From an uncultured Clostridia bacterium (lineage in GTDB: Bacteria; Bacillota; Clostridia; Lachnospirales; Anaerotignaceae), in contig CALWGF010000009.1 of assembly GCA_944379995.1 (NCBI GenBank), positions 1 to 64,000 on the forward strand: a DNA stretch of 64,000 nt. Reading direction: 5' to 3'. A program made the translations under genes and the position numbers. How positions within the stretch are numbered: position 1 is the first letter of the stretch; every line of letters begins with the position of its first letter. Under the pieces are notes generated by a model. It did no database searches and was not told where the DNA came from. It saw nothing but the letters and a program-made list of their open reading frames with translations. Shown here one piece after another: positions 3,232 to 57,509 of the stretch.

Positions 3232-6200
3232 ATGAGAAGAAGAGCTACAAAAAAAGCAATTTCAATGGCTTTAGCTGCAGCAATGGCTTTTTCACAAGTT
3301 CAGGTTTTTGCAGCATCAAGTGATATTAAAGGTCATTGGGCAGAAAGTGCAATTACATCTTGGCAGGACAAAGGTTTAATTACTGGTTACACAGACGGAA
3401 CATTTAAACCTGATAACAGTATAACTCGTGCAGAGTTTGCTTCAATGGTAAATAAAGCACTTGGACTTACTGAAAAAGGAGATGTTCCTTTTAGTGATGT
3501 TCAGTCAGGAAGCTGGTACTATGATGCAATTTCTATTGCTGTTAAAGCAGGATATTGCTCAGGATATGAAGATGGAACATTTAAACCAGATGCAACAATC
3601 ACAAGAGCAGAAGCAGCTGTTATGATTGCACTTGCAAAAGGTTTAACACAGAATACAGCAGCTGCAAGTGGATTTGCTGATGCTGCTAATATCCCAGCAT
3701 GGGCAAAAGGTTATGTTGGAGCAGTTGTTAGTGCAGGATACATGAGCGGTCGTCCTGATGGAACATTTGATGCAACAAACACAATTACAAGAGCAGAAGC
3801 TGTTTCTTCATTAGACAGAGCTATGGGAAATACAGCAACTACAGATAAAGATGTTGTTGTAACAGAAGATGACGCAGTAATCGATGGACAGACAATAGAA
3901 GGAAACCTTATTATTGACAAAGCTGTTGGAGAAGGCGAAGTTTACGTTAAAAATTCAACAGTAGCTGGTAACATTATTGTACAGGGTGGTGGAGATGACT
4001 CTATATATCTTGAAAATGTTACAGTAAAAGGTAAAGTTATAGTAGAAAAATCAGGTGTAAGAGTACAGTTTGAAGGAACAACAGAAACAACAGATGTTGA
4101 AGTAAAAGCTGTATGTGAACTTAAAGGAAGAAACTTTGAGGGAAAAGTTGGAACAATTACAATAGCAGAAGAACTTGGAACAAGCGAAGCAGTTAAAGTA
4201 AACGTTCCAGCAGAAGCAGTTGTTATTTCAGCAAAAGCAAGTGTTTATGTAAATGCAAATGTTGATAAAGTAACAATTGCAAGCGATGCTAAAGATTCAA
4301 AATTAGAAGTTACAAGCAGTGCAAAAGTAGGAACAGTAGTAGCTGATGGTAAAGTAGCTATTTCAGGTTCTGGTAAAGTAGAAAAACTTGAAGCAAATGC
4401 TGATGGTATTACAGTTTCAAGCAGCACAACAATAACAAAAACAGAAGTAGCTGACGGAGTTGAAAAACCAAGCACACCAAGCACAGGTGGCGGCGGTGGC
4501 GGAAGCTCATCAGGCGGAAATACTTCAAGTAATAAAGTATCAGTTACTTTAAAAGATGGTGAAAATTTACAGACAATTCTTACAAAGGAGAAAACAAGTA
4601 AAAACTTAACTGTAAAAATACCAGCAGGCAATTATACAGTGCCACAAGGTGGTGTCTTAACATATGAAGGTAAAGGAAATTTAACAATTAACTGTGATGC
4701 AGGTGCTAACTTTACAGAAGCATTAACTAAGAGTGCTGTTGCATTAACAATTGATGCTCCTAATGTAACTGGTACTGTAACTGTTGAAGGTGCAACAAAA
4801 GGAATATCAGGATTAACATTTAATGCACCAACTGCAACTGTTAAAGCAGAAGTTCCAGTTGCTAAAGTAGCAATAAAAAGTGCTAAGAGTCTTGATGTTG
4901 CAACAGGTACAGCAACAACTGTAACAGGTACTGTTGATACAGTAAATATAAAAGATGCTACAGATGTAGTAGTATCAAATGCTGTTACAACAATTAATGT
5001 AACAAAAGCTGATAAAGTAACAGTAAATGATGCAGTTGCTAATATTACTGTAAATGGAGAAACAACAATTGCAGGTAGTGGTGCAATTACTACAATTAAT
5101 GCAGATAAAGCAATAACAATTGAAAGTACAGGTGCTATTGATGTTGTTAATGCAAAAGCTGATATAACAATAGATGCAGCAGCAACAAATGTATCAGAAG
5201 TAGCAGTAAGCGGAGATGCTGATGTAACAGTAAATGCAGATGTTGCTAAAGTAACAGTAGCAGATGGAGCTACAACAAAAATTACAGTAAAAGACGGTGC
5301 AACTGTAGCAACTGTTGATACAAAAGCAGATATTACAGTAGCTGGTGCAGGTACAATTACAGATATTTATGTAACAGCTGAAGGTAGTGCAGAAGATAAA
5401 ACAACTATTACAGCAGAAGGTACTATAAAAGTAGATACTGTTACAGGTGACAATACAGAAATAAATTCTGATGGTCTTAATACTGAAGAAGGCGGAAAAG
5501 TTCCAACTGAAGTAACAGGACTTACAGAAATCACAGGATTTACATCAACAGAAGATTTTGCAGTAACAGTAGAAAGTGATGAACACTTAACAACAGCAGA
5601 ATTAGCAGCTAAAAAACTTCCAAAAACTGTTGAATTAACATATGATACAGATGGAAAAGTAAATGCTAATATTACAGGATGGACATGTGAAAACTATGAT
5701 GCAAGCAGTAAAGAAGCACAGACATTTACAGCTACATATGAAATGCCATTAGGATATAAAGATGAAGTTGAAGCTATTACAGTAAAAGCAACAGTAACAT
5801 TAAGTGTTACACAGACAGAAGCAGAAACTATTAAAAATATTACTGTTGGTGATAGAGAAGCAACAGTTAATGAAAGTCAGCCAGTACAGGTAAATGACGG
5901 AAAATATACAGTTGGTGCAGTAAGATATGATGAAGGAAGCAAAACATATACAATTCCTGTAAATGGTACAAAAGCTTTAGTTGGTGAATCTTCAAGTTCA
6001 ACAGGTAGTGGAAAAGCTGGAAAATATGTAGGAATTGGTGTAACATTACAAGGTATAAGTGATATTAGAAATGTTTACTACTCATCATCAAAAGATTCAG
6101 GATTTGAAGCATTAACAGTAGATGAGACATTAAGAACAGAATTACAGAATAATTCATTTATATTCTATTTAGATGCAACAGGTAAGAATGAGGCAGATGG

Positions 6201-6291
6201 AGCAGAGGTAAAAGGTTCTGTATATAGATATATCAAACTTGGTGAAGATGGTGATGTAATTACATTAAAATTTGATTATACACCAGCATAA
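3232..6291 (+). CDS. SLH-domain surface protein with Ala/Thr/Val-rich repeats
   Basis: A 1019-residue exported protein, held on the wall by three SLH domains (about residues 31-75, 86-135, 147-197), each carrying a TITRAE-type motif and a GY-DGTF segment. Residues 1-28 are a signal peptide ending VFA-A. A Gly/Ser-rich linker lies near residues 418-430. From there to about 730 it is a monotonous Val/Thr/Ala/Asp alternation (VTVNA, TITxxG) suggestive of a beta-solenoid; the last third looks like beta-sandwich modules. GGGAGAG precedes the ATG. The TAA at 6289 is followed in the same frame by 200 more codons of identical style, so this may be a truncated form of a 1220-codon gene. Its exact role (S-layer component, adhesin) is inference. 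Confidence 0.85.
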   Translation: MRRRATKKAISMALAAAMAFSQVQVFAASSDIKGHWAESAITSWQDKGLITGYTDGTFKPDNSITRAEFASMVNKALGLTEKGDVPFSDVQSGSWYYDAISIAVKAGYCSGYEDGTFKPDATITRAEAAVMIALAKGLTQNTAAASGFADAANIPAWAKGYVGAVVSAGYMSGRPDGTFDATNTITRAEAVSSLDRAMGNTATTDKDVVVTEDDAVIDGQTIEGNLIIDKAVGEGEVYVKNSTVAGNIIVQGGGDDSIYLENVTVKGKVIVEKSGVRVQFEGTTETTDVEVKAVCELKGRNFEGKVGTITIAEELGTSEAVKVNVPAEAVVISAKASVYVNANVDKVTIASDAKDSKLEVTSSAKVGTVVADGKVAISGSGKVEKLEANADGITVSSSTTITKTEVADGVEKPSTPSTGGGGGGSSSGGNTSSNKVSVTLKDGENLQTILTKEKTSKNLTVKIPAGNYTVPQGGVLTYEGKGNLTINCDAGANFTEALTKSAVALTIDAPNVTGTVTVEGATKGISGLTFNAPTATVKAEVPVAKVAIKSAKSLDVATGTATTVTGTVDTVNIKDATDVVVSNAVTTINVTKADKVTVNDAVANITVNGETTIAGSGAITTINADKAITIESTGAIDVVNAKADITIDAAATNVSEVAVSGDADVTVNADVAKVTVADGATTKITVKDGATVATVDTKADITVAGAGTITDIYVTAEGSAEDKTTITAEGTIKVDTVTGDNTEINSDGLNTEEGGKVPTEVTGLTEITGFTSTEDFAVTVESDEHLTTAELAAKKLPKTVELTYDTDGKVNANITGWTCENYDASSKEAQTFTATYEMPLGYKDEVEAITVKATVTLSVTQTEAETIKNITVGDREATVNESQPVQVNDGKYTVGAVRYDEGSKTYTIPVNGTKALVGESSSSTGSGKAGKYVGIGVTLQGISDIRNVYYSSSKDSGFEALTVDETLRTELQNNSFIFYLDATGKNEADGAEVKGSVYRYIKLGEDGDVITLKFDYTPA

Positions 6292-6894
6292 GCAAAAAGT
6301 GATGTTGTAACATTAGAATCAGTAAAAGTAAATGATGTAGCTGCAACAGATGAAAATGGTGACGGAACATATGATGTAGCAATATCAGAAGAAGATTTTG
6401 CAGATGTAACAACAACAGATGTAGTAGTAACAGTAACAGCAGGAAGTAATGCAACAGTTGGAGAAATTACAAAAGATGATGAAGCTAGTGTGGAAGGAAC
6501 AAAAGTTGTATTCAAATTTACAGTAACAGCTGAAAATGGAACAGCAACAAAAGATTATACAGTAAATGTAACAAAAGCAGCAGTACAGGAAGATGTAACA
6601 ACAGCAGCATTCTCAGTTGTAGCATATGACAATACAATAACATTAACAGCAACAGAAGGAACATTTGATGAAACAGAAGGAATAAAAAAAGAAAACTATA
6701 CAGTAGCTCCAGGTTCATCAGATATAGCAGTAGCACCAACAAGTGTTGAAGTATCAGGAAATAAAGCAATATTAACATTTGAAACAGCTGTAAAAACACC
6801 AGGTTCAGATGTAACAGTAACAGTAAAAGCAGGTGCATTTGCAGAAGGAACAGTTGTAACAGAAGTAACAGGTGCTGCAAGCACAGTAGAATAA
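6292..6894 (+). pseudogene. In-frame 3' continuation of the SLH gene after a TAA
   Basis: After the TAA at 6289-6291 the same reading frame stays open for 200 codons, to TAA at 6892. The translation begins AKSDVVTLESVKVNDVAATD and keeps the same Val/Thr/Ala-rich composition and GAA/ACA/GTA codon habit as the gene upstream, including a cadherin-like or Big-like segment (TVTAENGTATKDYTVNVTKA). A GTG at 6490 could start a 134-residue protein, but I see no ribosome binding site there and no signal peptide. The simplest reading is a nonsense mutation in one long gene; stop read-through or an assembly error are alternatives. Confidence 0.75.
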
Positions 6895-6945
6895 TAATCT
6901 AAACAAATATTTAACTAAATTATATATAATATAATTTAACCACAA

Positions 6946-6971
6946 AAGAAGTCACAGCAATGTGGCTTCTT
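6946..6971 (+). terminator. Terminator after the SLH gene
   Basis: An 11-bp stem (6946-6956 / 6961-6971, one G-T pair, loop GCAA) runs straight into seven T. Its position after the second stop at 6892, not after the TAA at 6289, supports 3232-6894 being one transcription unit and originally one gene. Confidence 0.88.
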
Positions 6972-7005
6972 TTTTTATTTAAAAAATTCTCAAAAATTTT
7001 ATTTT

Positions 7006-56094: not shown

Positions 56095-56159
56095 ATAAAG
56101 GGGGGATGAGTAACTAAAAATTATTTTATGGCAGTACAAATTAAAGTACTGCTTTTTTT
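56095..56159 (+). ncRNA. Leader RNA with the same core as the MATE leader
   Basis: GGGGGGATGA leads into a small AGTAA / TTATT hairpin with a 7-nt loop, then TTATG and a perfect terminator stem GCAGTAC / GTACTGC (56131-56137 / 56146-56152) with seven T. The shared order with 10568-10652 (G-rich run, GAGTAAC, about ten bases, TTATG, terminator) is striking although the genes downstream differ. Confidence 0.45.
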
Positions 56160-56201
56160 ATTGCCATTAATAAGGAAGAAACAATGAAAGGAGAAATTTG
56201 T

Positions 56202-56570
56202 ATGAGAGAAAAAGAAATCAGAGTTTTAGAGGTAAAGCCGCATGAGTACCCAAAAGAATTTATGTTGGAAAATTCACTTGAAGCTATGCAGGAGGCTGTG
56301 GGAGGATTAATTGACATTATAGATTTGGAACAAGATACTTGTATCCTTTTAAATGACGAAGGAAAATTAATTGGATTGGAAGGCAACAGGAGATTTTATG
56401 ATGACATAATTGTTGGCAACTTCTATATTTGTGGAAGTGATGAAGAAGGAAACCTTACTTCATTGACAGATGAGCAAATGGAAAAATACAAAGAAATTTT
56501 TTATGAGCCACAGGAGTTTACAGAAGATGAAATAGAAGAAACAACAAGAATTGAAGTTATTACTTTTTAA
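56202..56570 (+). CDS. DUF3846 protein
   Basis: A 122-residue acidic protein; ATG 56202 follows AAAGGAGA. Residues 1-95 fit DUF3846 (REKEIRVLEVKPHEYPKEF, VGGLIDIIDLEQDTCILLND, GLEGNRRFYDDIIVGNFYICG). The family is common on Firmicute conjugative elements and phages, function unknown. First gene of the accessory block, behind an attenuator. Confidence 0.8.
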   Translation: MREKEIRVLEVKPHEYPKEFMLENSLEAMQEAVGGLIDIIDLEQDTCILLNDEGKLIGLEGNRRFYDDIIVGNFYICGSDEEGNLTSLTDEQMEKYKEIFYEPQEFTEDEIEETTRIEVITF

Positions 56571-56592
56571 ATATAAATGGAGGTTTAAAAAT

Positions 56593-56883
56593 ATGAGAGA
56601 AAAAATTTATAAAGAAACTGAAACTATTGATATTCCAGAAAGCTATCTTGAACAGGCAGGAATAAATCCTAATGAGCAAATAGATGCTATTGTGGGAGAA
56701 GGTTTTATAGTAATTAAACCACGAAATATTCTTGGAAGACTTCCTGAAGACCTTCTTTTATTTTATGAGAGTTTAGGTTTTGAGAGAGAACTTGTAAAAG
56801 AAGTATTGGAAAAAGAAGCAGAGAAAGTAGGAAGCATTGACGAATTGGTTAGGGATATTAAAAAATTTTTTAATAAGCAGTAA
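56593..56883 (+). CDS. AbrB-like small protein
   Basis: A 96-residue protein; ATG 56593 follows TGGAGG at good spacing. Residues 8-42 (ETIDIPESYLEQAGINPNEQ then IDAIVGEGFIVIKP) fit a swapped-hairpin AbrB fold; the rest is helical. Possibly a DNA-binding regulator or antitoxin-like protein. A second such protein is at 61999. Confidence 0.55.
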   Translation: MREKIYKETETIDIPESYLEQAGINPNEQIDAIVGEGFIVIKPRNILGRLPEDLLLFYESLGFERELVKEVLEKEAEKVGSIDELVRDIKKFFNKQ

Positions 56884-56884
56884 A

Positions 56885-56910
56885 AAGGACATGAGTTAAA
56901 TCATGTTCTT
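56885..56910 (+). terminator. Intergenic attenuator hairpin
   Basis: A 10-bp stem AAGGACATGA / TCATGTTCTT (one G-T pair) right after a stop codon, then a T-run, 30 bases before the next start. Confidence 0.75.
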
Positions 56911-56941
56911 TTTTTATACCAAAAAGAAAGAAGGAAAAAAT

Positions 56942-57061
56942 ATGAGAAATGAATTTAAAGAAAACAAATACCCAAAAGCACCAAAGAAAATATTACCTAA
57001 AAAAACAACAAATTTAGTTAAAGTAAAATATCACAGACGTTCAGAAAAATCAGGGAGATGA
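56942..57061 (+). CDS. 39-residue basic peptide
   Basis: A very basic 39-residue peptide (start MRNEFKENKYPKAPKKILPK, end KYHRRSEKSGR) behind GAAGGAA. Its stop overlaps the ribosome binding site of the next gene. Basic content suggests nucleic-acid binding. No family recognised; coding status rests on the ribosome site and tight spacing. Confidence 0.5.
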   Translation: MRNEFKENKYPKAPKKILPKKTTNLVKVKYHRRSEKSGR

Positions 57062-57065
57062 TAAA

Positions 57066-57509
57066 GTGATAAAATTATATCCGAATTCTTTTGAAACAGC
57101 TTTAAAAAATGGCAATTATGATATAGGACTTTATATTGCTTCTTGTAAAGAAAATATAAAGTGTGCAAGAGATATTGAAAAAGCCATTAATGAAAATTTT
57201 GATGGCTATAAATTAGGTAAAGGCTTCGAAAAAGAAATAATAGAAACTTATGGCTTTCAAAGAGTAAACTTTGTACTTGCTTATAATATTCAGCAAAAAG
57301 TTAATGATGGAAGAATTAACACAGAAAATAAGGACTGGGCAAAAAATATAGATATAGAAGATGATAAATTCAATTCATATGACAGAAGAAGTGAATACTT
57401 AATAGATGCAGATGTTGGACTTTTAAATATTTTTGCAAACCGAGTAATAGAAGAAACATCATTTCAAAAAGTGGAGGATTTAGATGACGGTTTGAAATGC
57501 TCATACTAG
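57066..57509 (+). CDS. DUF3849 protein
   Basis: A 147-residue protein starting at GTG 57066 behind GGGAGATGA. Residues about 5-120 fit DUF3849 (IGLYIASCKENIKCARDIEKAI, ENFDGYKL, YGFQRVNFVLAYNIQQKVNDGR, DRRSEYLIDADVGLLNIFAN). Known only from mobile elements and phages; function unknown. Confidence 0.75.
   Translation: MIKLYPNSFETALKNGNYDIGLYIASCKENIKCARDIEKAINENFDGYKLGKGFEKEIIETYGFQRVNFVLAYNIQQKVNDGRINTENKDWAKNIDIEDDKFNSYDRRSEYLIDADVGLLNIFANRVIEETSFQKVEDLDDGLKCSY

Follow-up and report, generated by a model that had tools for sequence, protein, structure and literature searches.

Why does the reading frame of a large surface-protein gene run on, uninterrupted, beyond the stop codon that ends the gene? 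This question is raised by an SLH gene in the window, that is, the whole 64-kb stretch of DNA analysed here, which is contig 9 of a draft genome (2.09 Mb in 25 contigs, 88.8% complete). The first-pass annotation had described a TAA codon at 6289–6291 followed by 200 open codons in the same frame, and had left three explanations side by side: a nonsense mutation, readthrough of the stop, and an assembly error. We verified the observation itself, finding the frame of the ATG at 3232 open from 6292 to 6891, where it runs into the tandem stop TAATAA. We then examined the coding character of the continuation (hereafter, the tail), its homology, and the state of the corresponding genes in relatives.

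The SLH gene and its setting

The gene as it stands codes for a protein of 1019 residues that, from the N-terminus onwards, comprises a signal-like segment, three SLH domains, a β-rich repetitive region, a Gly/Ser linker and a C-terminal stretch with no domain assigned (Table 1). The presence of three SLH domains (PF00395; whole-protein E-value of 1.1e-42 in Pfam) makes it a member of the SLH-domain surface proteins, and its N-terminus, MRRRATKKAISMALAAAMAFSQVQVFAASS, resembles a signal peptide when judged by eye. The gene is flanked upstream by those for an alkaline phosphatase and a YibE/F protein, and downstream by those for a cupin and a prismane-family protein. The terminator listed in Table 1 is the only one found on the + strand between 2900 and 7300, which bears out the earlier statement that transcription is terminated only past the second stop. 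Elsewhere in the window, genes for DUF3846 and DUF3849 proteins, both of unknown function, lie at 56145–57506; they begin a run of small genes (56–64 kb) that may represent a mobile element.

Table 1. Features of the interrupted SLH gene, with positions given in the window
Feature	Position	Strand	Details
SLH surface protein gene	3232..6291	+	1019 aa; starts at ATG 3232, ends at TAA
SLH domain 1 (PF00395)	3319..3441	+	E 1.7e-14
SLH domain 2 (PF00395)	3487..3618	+	E 2.0e-16
SLH domain 3 (PF00395)	3673..3801	+	E 1.3e-12
In-frame TAA, premature relative to the ancestral gene end	6289..6291	+	
Tail: open frame beyond the TAA, a detached C-terminal portion of the SLH gene	6292..6891	+	200 codons
Weak match to a cadherin-like β-sandwich (PF12733)	6403..6576	+	E 0.0067, below the cut-off; first half of the tail
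Last domain of the tail, with homology to the natural C-terminal ends of the uninterrupted G031 and G002 SLH proteins	6577..6891	+	
Tandem stop TAATAA, likely the original gene end	6892..6897	+	
Rho-independent terminator	6944..6973	+	13-pair stem, then a T-run

The tail bears the signature of a coding sequence

When the tail was shuffled 20,000 times with its dinucleotides preserved, no shuffle came out free of stops (mean, 15 stops per shuffle), and the two remaining forward frames of the tail itself contain 30 and 16 stops. Under a codon-usage model trained on the long ORFs of the window, all 200 codons of the tail score as coding, with a total of 153 log units. The SLH gene's own codon table likewise favors the actual frame (−3.0 per codon versus −5.4 and −4.9 in the other frames). 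The earlier claim that the codon habit stays the same after the TAA is only approximately true: within the tail, at 6592–6891, the frequency of A at third positions reaches about 0.75, up from about 0.54 in the codons before.

Of the open stretches in the window, 45 are 200 codons long or longer, and we surveyed these for comparable continuations. Apart from the SLH gene, only two of them extend in frame by more than 31 codons; one extension corresponds to a neighboring gene that has a start and a ribosome binding site of its own, and the other to the antisense of the SLH gene. The SLH gene is hence the sole split gene of this type across the 64-kb window.

The tail is homologous to natural C-termini of uninterrupted relatives

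The last ~105 residues of the tail match the C-terminal end of an SLH protein from another genus (G031), with 38% identity over 93 residues and an E-value of 2e-12, a value that applies to this single comparison. That protein is encoded by one uninterrupted ORF of 1372 codons, and the match extends to nearly identical final residues, ASTVE in the tail and ASTVSE in the homolog. A second match is to the end of an SLH protein from a congener (G002), which at 985 residues is again the product of a single uninterrupted ORF: here, the last 48 residues of the tail show 44% identity, and the alignment stops three residues short of the end in both proteins. These matches occur against a background of C-termini that are highly variable among the relatives. 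A common end of all relatives at the same TAA, with unrelated sequence beyond it, was the pattern that the first-pass annotation had set against an interrupted gene. What we found instead is that the uninterrupted homologs from G002 and G031 continue past the position of the stop and end in a homolog of the domain that closes the tail. Thus, the SLH gene was formerly longer, and the tail is its real C-terminal part.

Related SLH genes are repeatedly broken

Within the same genus, the best match of the window's SLH gene is found in a sister species, Tyzzerella sp. An114 (Lachnospiraceae, Lachnospirales). This ortholog (L032:5043-7763) shows in-frame nonsense codons in an otherwise open frame, as does the window gene. 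It differs in that its stops are early, a TAA at codon 86 and a TGA at codon 245, and are accompanied by deletions inside the gene and probably by a frameshift close to its 3′ end, whereas the window gene has a late single stop. Both of these stop codons recur in an independent metagenome-assembled genome (MAG) of the An114 species (L033), which is 99.8% identical to the isolate (L032) over 3789 bp. At codon 51, the MAG has a third in-frame stop, a TAA in place of the serine codon of the isolate, apparently a within-species nonsense polymorphism. The An114 ortholog is clearly a pseudogene.

Lesions are seen in further relatives as well. The SLH gene of a more distant relative, G048:C1 (L210:15451-18870; about 723450–726870), consists of a 516-codon stretch, a TAG and then 624 in-frame codons, with the TAG splitting the first of two similar repeats; this gene is probably broken or, less likely, read through. 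In G003:C59, one SLH copy (L192) is frameshifted just past the Gly-rich linker and its continuation in the other frame encodes a repeat-like surface region, while the second copy in that genome (L174) is intact. Other long in-frame extensions found in relatives (e.g., L187) are unlike the SLH protein and look non-coding; we did not count them as cases of this kind.

We then compared the incidence of breaks between two sets of SLH genes. The window-type set was defined by at least 43% identity to the N-terminal part of the window protein over at least 385 residues and by complete 3′ ends; the gene of An114, which its own stops break into fragments, was also included in this set, being the top match within the genus. 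The comparison set comprised 40 more distant SLH genes from the same taxonomic family. In a comparison of small numbers that was devised after seeing the data, 4 of the 14 window-type genes are broken versus none of the 40 others (Fisher p = 0.003), and the difference persists upon exclusion of the window gene itself (3 of 13; Fisher p = 0.012). That window-type genes have been broken independently and at differing positions in several relatives suggests that this SLH gene is dispensable or at times selected against, for instance by phages whose receptors are surface-layer proteins.

A recent nonsense mutation as the probable cause

Among the three explanations originally left side by side, the homology of the tail and the An114 nonsense codons found in two assemblies favor the nonsense mutation; readthrough is unlikely, and an assembly error is possible. 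We consider it probable that an SLH surface protein of an often disrupted kind was cut short by a recent nonsense mutation, an account that needs no special stop-reading mechanism. The ancestral gene would have coded for an SLH-anchored surface protein of approximately 1220 residues, and a recent point mutation would have created the TAA at 6289. Ribosomes would now release a secreted, SLH-anchored protein of 1019 residues that lacks the last one or two β domains, with the mRNA continuing to the terminator beyond the old stop and the tail persisting as an untranslated remnant too young to have decayed.

The open coding frame of the tail, its homology to natural C-termini and its lack of a convincing start are direct observations. 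We infer that the TAA change is real in the organism and of recent date, and that cells still produce and anchor the shortened protein, whose export and anchoring are predicted from its SLH domains and from an N-terminus that resembles a signal peptide. A point against this account is that an untranslated remnant is expected to gain a second lesion with time and the tail has none; hence, the mutation must be recent. The simplest account is a recent nonsense mutation in a surface protein that evolves fast and appears to be dispensable.

The most serious competitor, albeit an unlikely one, is an error in the assembly or its consensus, in which case the organism would have a sense codon at 6289 and make one protein of about 1220 residues. 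The draft state of the genome, the abundance of short, similar strings of codons in the SLH gene and the perfectly intact tail would all fit such an error; but a lone in-frame substitution without an indel is atypical of assembly errors, no other gene is split in the rest of the 64-kb window, and related genes carry real nonsense changes on which two assemblies agree. For comparison, the assembly itself offers neither another copy nor a variant of the site, our search for one having returned just a weak 52-base match, and a search for conspecific DNA in viral contigs gave no match.

It is also rather improbable that the 1019-residue form is an established functional truncation, with its new end tolerated or favored and the tail carried along as a passenger that is open by chance. 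The wide variation of C-termini among relatives is compatible with this, as is the apparent location of the stop near a domain junction, just ahead of the weak cadherin-like domain. However, the junction depends on that below-threshold match. The 203 residues preceding the TAA had no detectable homolog in 392 genomes of the order, and the junction thus cannot be placed by homology. A structure prediction for the C-terminal 404 residues, in which the stop codon was treated as an arbitrary residue for folding only, was too poor (mean pLDDT of 41) to support a stop at a domain junction. Moreover, the tail is not intrinsically low in stops, as the shuffles indicate, which makes its long persistence without a second lesion unlikely.

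We regard as very unlikely the proposal that a fraction of ribosomes decodes the UAA at 6289, so that the gene yields two surface proteins, one short and one long. The long intact frame and the terminator placed only past the second stop would suit it, but in bacteria either class-I release factor recognizes UAA, and the genome carries two class-I release-factor genes. No stop-reading anticodon was found among the tRNAs identified (47 tRNA matches in the 88.8% complete genome), and we accordingly rejected a suppressor tRNA. The 100 nt following the TAA are nominally structured (fold z of −2.6); yet 4 of 60 evenly spaced segments of the SLH gene fold with a z of −2.6 or lower. The fold just past the stop is thus not unusual for this gene, and a stimulatory RNA element was rejected as well. 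The relatives provide no stop at a conserved position: the uninterrupted ones have none at that place, while the others have stops of all three types elsewhere, and these differences in type and place speak against a conserved recoding site. A change of genetic code was rejected, given that the original gene end is itself TAATAA and that the other genes of the window are uninterrupted.

Finally, separate translation of the tail as a second gene through reinitiation has next to no probability and was rejected for lack of a usable start. No ATG occurs in the tail, and the sole in-frame ATG/GTG/TTG/CTG codon there is a GTG at 6490. This GTG could begin a 134-residue ORF but lies 200 nt past the stop, and visual inspection showed no clear ribosome binding site for it, in agreement with the earlier annotation. 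The product would lack a signal peptide, and in G002 and G031 the homologous domain forms part of the SLH protein.

Parallels in known surface-layer mutants

The nearest precedent for a recent nonsense mutation in such a gene comes from Clostridioides difficile, in which spontaneous nonsense and frameshift mutants of slpA, a major surface-layer gene (FM2.5 and FM2.6), are resistant to Avidocins, which are phage-tail-like killing particles (PMC10100898). As in the window gene, a point mutation has created a premature TAA in the surface-layer gene of FM2.5 (PMC10100898). The parallel has limits: the C. difficile mutants were selected in the laboratory and their SlpA is severely truncated, while the stop in the window gene removes just about the last 16% of the protein and retains all the SLH domains. 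In phage-resistant csaB mutants of Bacillus anthracis, recovered under phage pressure, spontaneous nonsense and frameshift mutations disturb the surface display of SLH proteins (PMC3545897). There, the affected gene codes for the SLH-anchoring enzyme, unlike the window gene, which codes for the SLH protein itself. Our search of the literature for phase-variable surface-layer pseudogenes returned nothing. By analogy with these systems, killing by phages or phage-tail particles is a plausible cause of the repeated loss of SLH genes.

Implications for surface proteins of gut Lachnospirales

Taken alone, the TAA in the window is an ordinary truncation, and its immediate consequence is one of annotation: the SLH gene should be flagged as disrupted rather than listed as coding for an intact 1019-residue protein. 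More speculatively, and with low confidence, we suggest that this SLH subfamily in gut Lachnospirales might be a recurrent natural target of inactivating nonsense and frameshift mutations at many positions, and that selection by phages, tail-like bacteriocins or host immunity might maintain on, off and truncated versions of the gene in populations. The late TAA of the window would be one such allele and, if so, would trim the exposed tip of the SLH protein while keeping its anchor. The loss of C. difficile SlpA function does arise under killing by phage-tail particles (PMC10100898). The broken window-type loci, together with the nonsense difference between the two An114 assemblies, make frequent loss of function of surface proteins in gut Lachnospirales a testable proposition.
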